64,000 nucleotides of DNA. Source: an uncultured Tropicimonas sp. Lineage in GTDB: Bacteria; Pseudomonadota; Alphaproteobacteria; Rhodobacterales; Rhodobacteraceae. Positions within the stretch are counted from its first letter, which is position 1; each line of letters starts with the position of its first letter. Below the pieces are notes generated by a model that saw only the letters and a program-made list of their open reading frames with translations, searched no databases and was not told where the DNA came from. Both the position numbers and the translations under genes were made by a program. Below are positions 32,317 through 37,567 of the stretch, piece after piece. The DNA is taken from positions 62,001 through 126,000 of the forward strand of contig CANLZY010000007.1 in NCBI GenBank assembly GCA_947495685.1, written 5' to 3'.

Positions 32317-32870
32317 GTGCCGATGGTTTCGACCGTGACGTTGCCGTTGGTGTAGACACAGATGTCGGCGGCAATGGCCATCGCCTTGCGGGCGATTTGC
32401 TCTGCTGACTGGTCCGTGTCCATCAGGCCACGCGCCGCTGCCAGCGCGAAGTTCCCACCCGATCCGATGGCGGCGATGCCGTGTTCCGGCTCCAGCACGT
32501 CGCCGGCACCGGTAATCACCAGCAATTCCTTTCCATCCGTCACGATGAGCATGGCTTCCAGTTTCTGGAGGTACTTGTCGGTGCGCCAGTCCTTGGCCAG
32601 TTCAACCGCGGCGCGGGCCAACTGCCCTGGCGTCGCTTCCAGCTTTGCCTCCAGCCGTTCCAGCAGCGTAAAGGCATCTGCGGTCGAACCGGCAAATCCG
32701 CAAACGACATCCTGGCCGCCGGGCGACAGCCTTCGGACCTTTCGGGCGGTTCCCTTGATCACGGTCTGGCCGAGGCTGACCTGACCGTCTCCGGCAACGA
32801 CCACCTCGTTCCCCTTGCGAACCCCGATAATCGTTGTTCCATGCCAGCCCGGAAAATCACTGTCGGCCAT
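32313..32870 (-). CDS. hslV: ATP-dependent protease peptidase subunit HslV
   Basis: Proteasome-like threonine peptidase of HslVU. 185 residues. The start ([20 protein letters not shown]) places a propeptide ending in HG before the catalytic N-terminal Thr of [30 protein letters not shown] and [14 protein letters not shown]-like segments are standard. An ATG at 32882 would add 4 residues; the shorter form is the family norm. It overlaps the next gene downstream. Confidence 0.96.
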
Positions 32871-33086
32871 GATCGTCTCCATTCGTTGCGGGGCCTATAT
32901 GGGGGTGTTGAGTCGATCACACAACCAAGGATGCTTGCCTTAAGCGTGGCACAAGCGGCTGTTGCCCGCGGCGCGAAGAGAGATGCCAGGGGTCTCCCAA
33001 ACCGAAATCGGCCCGAAGTGCGTGACTTGGGGGTCGGCAGTTCAGGCAACGATCAAGAGCAGCATGCCGCCACGGGTCATCTCGGG

Positions 33087-34459
33087 TCAGCCGATCGCAA
33101 CGGCGTTCACGCCTTTGGCGACACAGGGCATGAACTGTTCGAAGTTGTGCTTGAACATGCCAACAAGTTTGGTGGCCTGCGAATCATTGGCATCCTGATC
33201 TTTCCACGTGTCACACGGGTGCGGCAGGTCGGTCTCGATGCCGGGCATTTCGACCGGAACGTCGAAGCCGAAGTTCGGGTCTTTCTGGAAGGTAGCGGTG
33301 TCGAGCGTGCCGTCGAAAGCCACCGCGAGCAGGGCACGATTCGCCTTGATCGGCATTCTCGAACCGGTCCCGCAGGCACCACCGAACCAGCCGATTTAAG
33401 CCAGCCAGCAATGCGAATCGTTGTTGGCGATCTTCTTCTTGAGAAGATCACCGTAGCCTACGGGCGGACACGGCATGAACAGAGCCCCGAATCAGGTCGA
33501 GAAGATCGGCTGTGGCTCGGTGATACCACGTTGGGTTCCAGCTTCCTTTGGAGGTGAAGCCCGACTGGAAGCAGTACCTGGCTTGCTCAGGGTACAGGCG
33601 AGCGACCGGAGGCAGACCATCGAAAGCGTCGCAGGTCAGCATGACCAGGTCTTCGGGTTGCCGCCAAGCGACGTCAAAAGGGCCTTCGGGACCGGTGTCA
33701 ACGGAATGGCGCACCGCATGCTGGGCGTGGCAAAGATTTCCGGCTCGGCGTCCTGGCTCAGACTGGCCGAGCAGTGCATTGTCATGACGTCTTTGCCGGG
33801 CAGGAAATGGTTGAGAACAGAAAAGCAAGCCTGCTTGTTTTCGCCGAGGTGTCCGGTGCCGCCGATCGGGACCGTCGTCGGTTCCATGTTGAGTGCGGCG
33901 ACGGTTTCGGTTTGGACGTTGTGGCGCTCCGGCTAGGCCATGAAGCAGGGGCAGTTGAGGACGGCCCAATCGTGTACAAACGTGTCGAGTGCGACGCGCA
34001 CCGGACGACGCTGCATGTGGCGCATTATCAGGTTGCGTCAGGCTATTTTCGTCTCCAGGCGGAAGTTGACGCGCAGGGTCTTGCCTGCGCGGCCATAGAG
34101 GTCGGGCAATTGGTCGTCGCGAGCCATCCTGTGCTCCAACATGTTCGCCTTCAGGTTGTTGAAACCTTCCGGCGAATCGGCTTGTTGTGTGCACACCAGA
34201 TTGCGTCTTTGGCGGTGGCGTTGCGGACAACGTGCTTGTCCTTGGGTGAGCGGCCGGTGAATTTGACGGTGCTCACCAACGTACCGCCCAACCCGCTTTT
34301 ACCCTCGCCATTCCTGACGGCGTCGGCCATCAGAACGGGGTCGATGAAGTTGTAGCAAACGTTGCCGAGTCCAGTGATGCCTTGATCTTCCAGGCATTGA
34401 GCCGGGTTCACACGTCCAGCGGTCACCTGGTCGCTGCCGTTGACCGCCAGCGCCGTCAT
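33087..34459 (-). pseudogene. pckA: ATP-dependent PEP carboxykinase pseudogene
   Basis: Decayed gene for the ATP-type PEPCK. The N-terminal part is clear ([33 protein letters not shown] near residues 67-79) but breaks off after NKPI. Further pieces appear in other frames: [36 protein letters not shown], and [20 protein letters not shown]. The segment after MHCSA jumps straight to [12 protein letters not shown], so the P-loop and metal-binding block is deleted (junction near 33765). Three frame changes are needed, and in-frame stops stand at 33492-33494 (TGA, in STCFG) and 33396-33398 (TAA). The total is about 200 bases shorter than a working gene. It lies next to chvI in relatives; here GTP-PEPCK sits between. 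Confidence 0.9.
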
Positions 34460-34470
34460 TCTTTACGAAT

Positions 34471-34499
34471 CAAAAAAGCCGGCAGGTGTGAAACCTGCC
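34471..34499 (-). terminator. Rho-independent terminator
   Basis: On the minus strand a 7-bp stem GGCAGGT...ACCTGCC (plus positions 34481-34487 and 34493-34499) is followed by GGC and six T. It stands between the GTP-PEPCK stop and the ATP-PEPCK pseudogene, so the pseudogene is shielded from read-through. Confidence 0.7.
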
Positions 34500-34588
34500 A
34501 GCCATTGTCTTGGAACGCGCGCCGTCAGGCGGGTTGCGATGGTTCCATGTACGCTGATTTGTGATCTTTGCGTCGATCCTGAACGGTC

Positions 34589-34614
34589 AAGGGGGCGACC
34601 GAAGCCGCCCCCTT
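34589..34614 (-). terminator. Hairpin terminator downstream of GTP-PEPCK
   Basis: AAGGGGGCG (34589-34597) pairs with CGCCCCCTT (34606-34614), a perfect 9-bp stem with an 8-base loop, starting just 7 bases beyond the gene's stop codon. The trailing T-run is weak. Confidence 0.65.
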
Positions 34615-34621
34615 GTTGGGA

Positions 34622-36460
34622 TCAATCGTGATGCTCGTGGGCGAGCTCCCAGTGATCGGGGGAGCGCCACAGGCGCGAACGCAGGAGTTCACGTTCGAAG
34701 ATGAACTCTTTCGGGAGTCGGTCGAAGAACTTCTCGAACTGCTCCTCGTGGGCGTGGGCTTCCTTTGCACCCGCCTCCCGGCCGACTTCCATCAGCTCGT
34801 AGAAGGTATCCGACGGGAAATCGAGACCGTCCCAGTGGATATCCTCGTGGCGCGGCATCCAGCCGATCGGGCTTTCGACAGCCATACCGCGGCCGTGCAC
34901 ACGGTCGACGATCCACTTCAGAACACGCATGTTCTCGCCAAAGCCAGGCCAGATGAACTTGCCGTTCTCGTCCTTGCGGAACCAGTTGACGCGGAACATC
35001 CGCGGCGGGTTCGAGACGCGACGGCCAACGTTCAGCCAATGCGTGAAGTAGTCGGCCATGTTGTAGCCACAGAAGGGCAGCATCGCCATCGGGTCACGCC
35101 GCATAGCGGTCACACCGATCGCAGCAGCGGTCGCTTCCGAGCCCATGGTCGCAGCAAGGTAGACGCCGTGGCTCCAGTTGAAGGATTGGAAGACCAGCGG
35201 CATGTCCTGGCTCATCCGGCCACCGAACACGAAGCCGGCAATCGGCACACCAGCCGGGTTTTCCCAATCGGCGTCAGCCGACGGGCAGTTGGCAGCCGGC
35301 GCGGTGAAGCGCGCGTTCGGGTGTGCGGCCGGGGTCTCGCTTGCGGGAGTCCAGTCGTTGCCCTTCCAGTCGATCGCGTGCGCAGGCTTCTCTTTGGTCA
35401 TGCCTTCCCACCAGATGTCGCCATCGTCGGTGAGCGCGCAGTTGGTGTAGATGACGTCCGACTTGATCGTATCCATGGCGATCGGGTTGGTCGCACGGTT
35501 CGTGCCCGGAGCCACGCCGAAGAAGCCGGCCTCGGGGTTGATCGCGCGCAGTTCGCCGTCCGGACCCTTCTTGATCCAGGCGATGTCGTCGCCGACGGTC
35601 GTGACTTTCCAGCCTTCGAAGCCCTTGGGCGGCAGCAGCATGGCCAGGTTGGTCTTGCCGCAGGCGCTCGGGAATGCAGCGCCAAGGTAGGTCTTTTCAC
35701 CTTCCGGCGATTCGATGCCCATGATCAGCATGTGCTCGGCGAGCCAGCCTTCGTCGCGGGCCATGACCGAAGCGATACGCAGGGCCAGGCACTTCTTGCC
35801 GAGCAGGGCGTTGCCGCCGTAGCCCGAGCCGTAGGACCAGATCTCGTAGGTCTCGGGGAAGTGGACGATGTACTTGTTCGCGATGTCGCTTTCGCAAGGC
35901 CACGGCACATCTGCCTGACCTTCTTCGAGCGGTGCACCGATGGAGTGCATTGCGGGGATGAAGAAACCGTCGTCGCCAAGCGAGTCCAGCACTTCCTGGC
36001 CCATGCGGGTCATGATGCGCATGTTGGTGACAACATAGGGGCTGTCTGTGATCTCGACGCCAATCTTGGAGATCGGGGAGCCGATCGGACCCATGGAGAA
36101 GGGAATGACGTACATCGTCCGACCCTTCATGCAGCCGTCGAACTTCTCGTTCAGCGTCGCACGCATCTCGGCGGGATCGGCCCAGTTGTTGGTGGGGCCG
36201 GCGTCGTTCTTGTTGTTCGAGCAGATGAAGGTACGGTCTTCGACCCGGCCAACATCGGAGGGGTGCGAACGGGCGAGGTAGCTGTTCGGGCGCAGTTCAG
36301 GGTTGAGGCGGATGAAGGTCCCAGCGTCTACCATTTCCTGGCAGAGCCGATCGTATTCTTCCTGGGATCCGTTGCACCACACGACCTGATCGGGCTTGGC
36401 GAGAGCCGCCATCTTGTCGACCCACTTGATCAGTTGGGCATTGGTGGTTGGAGCTTCCAT
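34622..36460 (-). CDS. pckG: GTP-dependent phosphoenolpyruvate carboxykinase
   Basis: Converts oxaloacetate and GTP to PEP, CO2 and GDP, the first gluconeogenic step. 612 residues. The P-loop of the GTP family is [13 protein letters not shown] (about 265-280, with the reactive Cys), kinase-2 VGDDIAWI follows, and [30 protein letters not shown] near the N terminus match the same family; this family shares little sequence with ATP-PEPCK. The start at 36460 has a GGAGGAAAGC site directly upstream. Complete and with intact motifs. Alphaproteobacteria mostly carry ATP-PEPCK at this chvI-linked locus, so this is probably an acquired replacement. Confidence 0.96.
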
Positions 36461-36865
36461 GCTTTCCTCCTCGGATAGCGGACACGTTGCGCAGGGGGGC
36501 CTGCGAGCCATGGCCACCTTGGCCCGGCGCGCTCCGTATAGCACCTCCGAAAACGTTTGGTAGCGTCTCAGGAGACTATTGTTAGCGCTACAATGTCGCT
36601 GTTTCCCGATCTGAATATCCGGGTTGCCCTCACGACATGCCCAAACTTGAATCGTGCATAGCTCGCCAGACCCCTGTGCATATGTCACCGCCGCAGATGG
36701 GCAGGCCGCGACAACAGATGTGATGTAAATTAGCCATTCCTTACCGAAATGGCGCTTCTCCTACCCCTGTATTGGCCTGTGATTCGCATTCACAGTTGAT
36801 TCCAGCGGTGGGAAACGGGAAAGTATGGAAAAAATAGCAAAATGAGCAGTACGAGGACCAACCAG
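36461..36865. promoter_or_regulatory. Divergent pckG/chvI intergenic region with palindromic sites
   Basis: About 400 bases between two divergent genes. Two imperfect or perfect palindromes lie 90-130 bases upstream of the PEPCK start: AAACGTTT (36551-36558) and TTGTTAGCGCTACAA (36579-36593), the latter one base short of the perfect TTGTTAGCGCTAACAA. Both resemble operators of LacI-family repressors, several of which control gluconeogenic genes in alphaproteobacteria. Assignment to a named regulator is inference. The chvI side is AT-rich close to its start. No further gene is visible. Confidence 0.5.
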
Positions 36866-37567
36866 ATGTCGCGCATCGCACTCGTGGACGACGACCGCAA
36901 TATCCTCACTTCCGTTTCCATGACACTTGAGGCCGAGGGATTCGAGGTGGAGACCTATAACGACGGGCAATCGGCGCTGGACGCCTTCAACCGCCGACTG
37001 CCCGACATGGCCGTGCTCGACATCAAGATGCCACGCATGGACGGCATGGACCTGCTGCAACGGCTTCGGCAAAAGACAAGCATGCCGGTGATTTTCCTCA
37101 CATCCAAGGATGACGAAATCGACGAGGTTCTGGGGCTGCGGATGGGGGCAGACGACTACGTCAAGAAACCCTTCTCCCAGCGTCTTCTTGTTGAGCGGAT
37201 CCGTGCCTTGTTGCGCCGACAGGAAGCGATCATCTCGGACGAGGCTGGCGAACCGGAAGCCTCGCAGATCTTGGAGCGCGGCGAACTGACGATGGACCCC
37301 TTGCGCCACTCGGTGAGCTGGAAGGGTCGAGACGTGTCCTTGACCGTCACCGAGTTCCTGCTGCTGCAGGCGCTTGCACAGCGGCCCGGATTCGTGAAAA
37401 GCCGCGATCAACTGATGGATGTGGCCTACGACGATCAGGTTTATGTCGATGACCGGACGATCGACAGTCACATCAAGCGTCTGCGCAAGAAGATGCGCAC
37501 CGTTGATGGCGACTTCTCGGCGATCGAGACTCTTTATGGTATCGGTTACCGATACAACGAAGAGTAA
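36866..37567 (+). CDS. chvI: Response regulator ChvI
   Basis: OmpR-type response regulator of the ChvG-ChvI acid/envelope-stress two-component system. 233 residues. Receiver domain with VDDDRNIL at the N terminus, phospho-acceptor Asp in [11 protein letters not shown], Lys in VKKPFS; winged-helix DNA-binding C terminus with [17 protein letters not shown]-type recognition helix. I choose the ATG at 36866 ([12 protein letters not shown]), with GAGGA at 36853-36857 and 8 bases spacing; an ATG at 36842 would add 8 residues. It diverges from pckG and leads into chvG. Confidence 0.95.

Follow-up and report, generated by a model that had tools for sequence, protein, structure and literature searches.

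Non-orthologous gene displacement in place is a known concept, in which a gene of another family for the same reaction enters the locus of a resident gene and the resident is lost. How a central enzyme can be exchanged in this way without a lethal interruption is mostly deduced from the end states. Phosphoenolpyruvate carboxykinase (PEPCK) comes in an ATP-type and a GTP-type, and the available part of a review (PMC8100219) gives the two a shared origin and no clear explanation for the use of ATP or GTP among bacteria. In all 13 Rhodobacteraceae covered by another study, as far as its available part goes, a LacI-family regulator named GapR is predicted, with the ATP-type gene pckA among its targets and a palindromic site of 20 base pairs (bp; PMC4052901). 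The DNA analysed here, referred to as the window, is a stretch of 64,000 nucleotides (nt) from an uncultured Tropicimonas sp. (assembly GCA_947495685.1, contig CANLZY010000007.1, positions 62,001 to 126,000); in it, an intact GTP-type PEPCK gene lies between the response regulator gene chvI and the remains of pckA. An earlier reading of the letters of the window (the sequence-only reading) had called the two enzymes unrelated, which is fair on sequence but at odds with the origin given in the review.

The locus is best understood, with a probability of about 80%, as the in-place replacement of the ATP-type PEPCK by a non-orthologous GTP-type PEPCK, by way of a long two-gene stage with a duplicated control region. 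The outline is that of displacement in place: a gene of another family for the same reaction has entered the resident locus, and the resident has been lost. It departs from that concept in two respects: extant species of a single genus represent the different stages, and the control region of the resident seems to have been duplicated instead of handed over. One-gene, two-gene, decayed and deleted stages occur in close marine relatives, several of them with deposited strains, and a recognisable regulatory step lies between the stages of the swap. Two-gene and one-gene species would let the choice between ATP and GTP be tested in similar backgrounds. Searches of the open-access literature, by titles and abstract openings, turned up no paper that deals with an exchange of PEPCK types or with the PEPCK of this genus.

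The source genome belongs to the genus Aliiruegeria/Tropicimonas, with Aliiruegeria sabulilitoris, A. lutimaris, A. haliotis and Tropicimonas sediminicola as named close relatives among the best 80 matches. Outside the genus, 62 of 63 genomes of the family have an ATP-PEPCK match (G028 and G035 only as pieces; the one without, G040, is only 74% complete), and none of the 63 has a GTP-PEPCK match. pckA stands beside chvI in all ten family outgroup loci chosen and also in G006, a species of the genus itself. These counts and this gene order make the ATP gene the resident, ancestral at the locus, and the GTP gene, foreign to the family, is by the same comparison a newcomer inserted between pckA and chvI. 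The sequence-only reading had proposed just this entry, with the old gene dead beside the new one. It had the objects and the direction of change right; its timing, its cause and its premise on the class call for correction.

The interval between pckA and chvI, compared among sister genomes, has ATP-only, two-gene and GTP-only arrangements. Nine other species of the genus divide into one with the ATP gene only (G006), seven with both and one with the GTP gene only (G008). Both genes are intact and adjacent in six of the eight other genus genomes (G001 to G005 and G007), and they are intact and side by side in A. sabulilitoris, which was judged from its PEPCK locus. Sister genomes carrying both intact genes, which the sequence-only reading had set against a replacement if ancestral, are thus found in seven of nine species, but according to the outgroups they do not represent the primitive state of the family. 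G008 has no pckA remnant, either by PF01293 over its genome or by nhmmer in the 12-kb locus, and an acyl-CoA-synthetase-like gene (named by eye) follows its GTP gene.

The ATP-type copy of the window is a pseudogene and no member enzyme: it is homologous to PF01293, but it has lost its open frame, the P-loop and the DDEH block of the metal site. It occupies 33087–34426 on the minus strand and, aligned to eight intact genes of the genus, reaches the ancestral stop at 33087–33089; the coordinates of the sequence-only reading are exact, and nucleotide identity to the eight is 69–73%. PF01293 recovers four pieces within 33231–34363 (best E 2.1e-31) and finds no other ATP-PEPCK in the whole assembly (5.64 Mb, 189 contigs, given as 100% complete). 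Four stops in the ancestral frame arose by substitution, at 34038–34040, 33933–33935, 33492–33494 and 33396–33398 (all on the minus strand, as are the other lesions), of which the last two had already been reported; a further in-frame stop triplet at 33758–33760, at the edge of a large deletion, is left out of this count. The frame changes, put earlier at no fewer than three, are single-nucleotide changes at 34175/34176, 33650/33651 and 33549, and there is also an in-frame 3-nt gap at 34280/34281. The deletion of the P-loop and metal-binding block was correctly recognised as well: at junctions within 33728–33761, 152, 19 and 84 alignment columns are missing (∼255 nt), and with them GLSGTGKTT and GDDEHGW.

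The decay of this gene has been long and neutral. At alignment columns invariant in all eight intact genus genes, the only ones used, the pseudogene carries changes at 43 of 312 first, 53 of 356 second and 19 of 108 third codon positions (13.8, 14.9 and 17.6%), against 1.6–3.7, 0–2.2 and 5.3–13.6% for the intact genes in the same test. Equal rates at all codon positions mean a long time without protein-level selection, and decay that is old, neutral and flat over codon positions rules out an assembly slip. The assembly is a draft in many contigs; nevertheless, given the flat pattern, the number of lesions, the identity to eight intact genes and the conserved chvI synteny, it is extremely improbable that a sequencing or assembly error or a chimeric contig mimics a pseudogene, and assembly error was rejected as the cause of the broken frame. 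The phrase ‘caught in progress’, with which the sequence-only reading implied a recent event, fits poorly: the pseudogene is far decayed, and the coexistence of both PEPCK genes is a long-lived state in the genus.

The GTP-type gene (34622–36460, minus strand), the acquired one, has an unbroken frame of 612 amino acids and both domains of the bacterial GTP-PEPCK family (EC 4.1.1.32), PF00821 and PF17297, far above the curated cut-off of 23.8 (PEPCK_GTP 535 bits, PEPCK_N 348 bits). An intact GTP-type enzyme of this length, with a P-loop and upstream of the decayed gene, is what had been read from the letters. All 23 solved sequences that it matches (E up to 1e-30) are named PEPCK GTP, and the enzyme is GTP-type by family assignment. 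Its P-loop with the reactive cysteine (FPSACGKTN) and its GDDIAW block line up with the solved enzymes 9e32 and 4rcg; the stretch NWFRK..GKF.WPGF, which presumably has a role in guanine binding, aligns with 4rcg. The gene shares domains, P-loop and length with the bacterial family and no sequence difference was seen; what is unusual is its position behind a control module of the pckA type. The reactive cysteine of GTP-PEPCK is mentioned in the available part of an earlier paper (PMC2684135).

Upstream of the GTP gene, a divergent intergenic region (36461–36841) leads to chvI (36842–37567, plus strand; the name is that of the sequence-only reading), the neighbour conserved in synteny. Alignment shows this region to be homologous to the stretch that precedes the ATP gene of G006. 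Among the family outgroups, a CGCTAAC box lies upstream of pckA in eight of ten (GCGCTAAC in seven; no match in o20 and o09), and a -10-like stretch, recognised by eye, follows at about 44 nt; in G006, GCGCTAAA and, 48 nt on, GTATACG stand before the ATP gene. In the window, an operator-like box GCGCTAAC (36581–36588, minus strand) and a -10-like CTATACG with TG before it (36535–36541, minus strand, 47 nt downstream of the box start) now stand upstream of the GTP gene, as what comparison suggests to be the ancestral pckA control module. The local alignment of the GTP upstream region with the ATP upstream region of G006 exceeds all 200 shuffles in nine of nine species. The box precedes the GTP gene in all nine (exactly in seven, one base off in G002 and G007), and TGNTATA follows exactly 45 nt after the box start in every one. 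The upstream regions in Consotaella and UBA10424, which carry related GTP genes, have no match to G006 (their scores are reached by 58 to 187 of the 200 shuffles), and the control region therefore probably did not arrive together with the GTP gene.

On the ATP side, the upstream regions of all seven intact two-gene species match G006 (no shuffle among 200 reaches the score). G001, G002 and G005 keep box and TATACG ahead of the ATP gene, with unchanged spacing and at nearly the distance to the gene seen in G006; the module is not recognisable there in G003, A. sabulilitoris, G004, G007 or the window. The leader of the window pseudogene (34427–34590, minus strand), the site of the second control copy in sister species, has neither a recognisable box nor a -10, and the upstream region does not match G006 (32 of 200 shuffles reach the score). 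A module pattern, fixed from the same sequences that were later scanned, matches nine times in the 283,627 bp scanned from the genus: six matches lie before GTP genes, three before ATP genes and none elsewhere, and in 20 rounds of shuffles it has no match. This conservation alone suggests that the module is used as a promoter, and, most simply, ∼100–130 bp of pckA control DNA would have been duplicated on insertion, so as to leave one copy on each side of the GTP gene. The box may be likened to the GapR site in that the sequence around it, upstream of pckA, is nearly palindromic, a likeness drawn from the description in the available part of that study and not from the letters of the motif (PMC4052901). 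The site counts do not support a regulon for the box: the box pattern has two exact sites genome-wide, fewer than a reversed control (seven on each strand), and no PEPCK-related gene was recognised in the stretch around the second (L217).

The two genes coexist with low ratios of nonsynonymous to synonymous substitution rates (dN/dS). For the ATP gene of two-gene species the median is 0.155 (15 pairs, six species; range 0.05–0.21); with 28 pairs each, it is 0.113 for the GTP gene, 0.119 for chvG, 0.130 for rapZ, 0.036 for chvI and 0.078 for rpoB. Relaxed selection on the ATP genes of two-gene species was sought and not clearly found, their range overlapping that of one-gene pairs in the family (0.04–0.24 in five of six pairs, the sixth being saturated). 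A. lutimaris and A. sabulilitoris both lack the ATP-side module, and their ATP genes differ by 57 synonymous and 11 nonsynonymous changes (39 and 16 for the GTP gene), so that loss of the module did not free the ATP gene from selection, at least there. The median synonymous rate is as low for rpoB as for the GTP gene (0.50 against 0.56; chvI 1.13), and recombination is therefore not needed to account for the low synonymous divergence of the GTP gene.

Across Alphaproteobacteria the two PEPCK types almost never occur together. In 387 genomes, sampled evenly over the class, GTP-PEPCK was found in 42 and ATP-PEPCK in 180 above the cut-off (two sub-threshold matches, which would give 182, were left out). 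Both occur in two, the window genome with its pseudogene and G301, against 19.5 expected if they were independent (Fisher P 8e-10, a value that is too small because relatedness is ignored). The near-exclusion makes Aliiruegeria/Tropicimonas a rare intermediate; the remark in the sequence-only reading that alphaproteobacteria usually have the ATP-type holds for the family and fails for the class sample.

Under the replacement reading, a GTP-PEPCK gene, with another alphaproteobacterium as its most likely source, would have been inserted between chvI and the ATP gene early in Aliiruegeria/Tropicimonas, leaving two pckA control copies that flank the new gene. With the control region thus duplicated, both genes would have begun under the same kind of control. 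Both would then have persisted under purifying selection, some lineages would later have lost the second control copy, and the ATP gene would have decayed neutrally in the window species and vanished separately in G008. Gene order, lesions, neutral decay, the module before the GTP gene and in three species before the ATP gene as well, low dN/dS where both genes coexist and the near-exclusion across the class are direct findings; we infer that there was a single insertion, that change ran in this direction and that the GTP enzyme now carries the whole PEPCK job. That entry of the foreign gene placed both enzymes under one duplicated pckA switch, and that the ATP unit then lost this switch in several lineages and the gene itself in two, is a tentative proposition at slightly less than even odds; if it is true, the regulatory hand-over precedes gene loss, with every stage alive.

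Trees of housekeeping and flanking genes contain (G002, G007, G005) and (G003, G008, G004) at 98–100% and, weakly, (G000, G001) at 48–76% in IQ-TREE; one flanking-gene tree is poorly resolved within the genus, and the rpoB sequences were gathered by tblastn. G008 stands apart from G000, beside two-gene species, so the ATP losses look independent, and the GTP gene tree agrees, with G008 beside G001 (97% on protein, 76% on nucleotides). With outgroups in the tree, the ATP genes of G001, A. lutimaris and A. sabulilitoris form the sister group of the pseudogene (100), and the GTP gene of the window joins the same three plus G008 (100). By this matching placement, the two genes of the window seem to have shared their history since the insertion.

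Why the ATP gene was lost can be read in other ways. The sequence-only reading held that the insertion cut the gene off from its promoter and that decay followed for that reason, in keeping with the terminator-like hairpins between the genes, the leader of the window without box or -10, and the other species that also lack the ATP-side module. Yet G001, G002 and G005 keep the module upstream of the ATP gene, seven of nine species keep both genes intact at low dN/dS, and the ratio of 57 to 11 comes from a pair without the module; separation from the promoter is an unlikely cause. There might also be no displacement trend at all, but a stable two-fuel system, each enzyme serving different conditions, from which two lineages dropped out. 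The seven two-gene species with low dN/dS suit such a system, and both genes may initially have been run by the same module; the near-exclusion across the class argues against it, as does the loss of the ATP gene in both observed cases, unless G006 lost the GTP gene, though two losses alone prove no trend. This account is possible, at odds clearly below even. A further account, possible at similar odds, puts the GTP gene in the ancestor of the genus and has it cleanly lost in G006. The two control copies might, for instance, have recombined with each other, since direct repeats flanking the gene would permit exact excision. The ATP gene of G006 does fall in the lineage of G002, G004, G005 and G007; the housekeeping set, however, puts G006 outside the rest (83%, FastTree 0.99; rpoB alone does not resolve this), and the family outgroups lack the GTP gene too.

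Several observations weigh against the replacement reading itself. The placement of the G006 ATP gene inside one ATP lineage (97–100%) conflicts with the housekeeping tree and makes it possible that the locus was exchanged or that G006 secondarily lost its GTP gene. Both PEPCK genes of G004 (L051) group with Tropicimonas-side species and its housekeeping genes with G003 and G008, which suggests that the PEPCK locus has been exchanged between species; the GTP gene of UBA10424 attaches next to the genus or weakly inside it (71). The match of the ATP upstream regions to G006 includes the leader and first codons, so a second control copy is evident only where box and -10 remain (three of seven species). 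When the two control copies are compared within a species, only G002 and G003 score above every one of the 200 shuffles; the score is reached by 1 shuffle in A. sabulilitoris, 3 in G001, 56 in G007, 68 in G000, 76 in G005 and 146 in G004. A consensus sigma-70 scan calls no promoter-like site in 32800–37000. The ATP pairs of A. lutimaris and A. sabulilitoris with G004 lie at the high end of dN/dS (0.185 and 0.211), and the class-wide test of exclusion takes no account of relatedness.

The source of the GTP gene is likely alphaproteobacterial. Among the best 80 matches, the nearest genes outside the genus are those of Consotaella salsifontis (91%), UBA10424 (84%) and Rhodoplanes (83%); the tree that the sequence-only reading had proposed for finding the donor puts Consotaella and UBA10424 nearest and singles out no donor. 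A plasmid donor was rejected: the 59 plasmid records that match all do so at less than 80% identity. A search of 17 genomes with related GTP genes found an ATP gene as well only in Consotaella and UBA10424. In Consotaella salsifontis (L164/L204, L071) the ATP gene lies elsewhere than the GTP gene. UBA10424, a metagenome-assembled genome labelled Rhodobacteraceae, has intact ATP and GTP genes that are adjacent and divergent (L075:4101–7824), with no match to chvI in the 12.3 kb analysed; this is perhaps a second, independent pairing.

Two hairpins lie between the PEPCK genes of the window. The one after the GTP stop (34591–34612, minus strand) was seen by eye and is not called by the terminator scan; hairpins, several of them T-tailed, stand at the same place in sister species. 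The other, T-tailed and called by the scan, lies in the old ATP leader (34477–34503, minus strand), and similar sequence is present in the ATP leaders of several sister species. This GGCTGGCAGG..CCTGCC-like hairpin just before the ATP-PEPCK start, T-tailed in several species (also L049, L050, L052 and L068), could be an attenuator. In 32800–37000, the scan calls six sites against 3.7 (standard deviation 2.1) in shuffles; the terminator that the sequence-only reading placed between the genes is plausible from the hairpins but unproven by this count.

The downstream side of the pckA locus seems to rearrange in the genus: at three loci (L050, L055 and L056), the genes found there, named by eye, are hslV in the window, modABC-like genes in L050 and an acyl-CoA-synthetase-like gene in L055. 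The ATP-PEPCK of G006 (L053:5462–7066), its sole PEPCK, deviates at two motifs common to the other seven intact ATP genes of the genus, with GRSPQDK for GRSPKDK and ANTEYAGE for GGTEYAGE.

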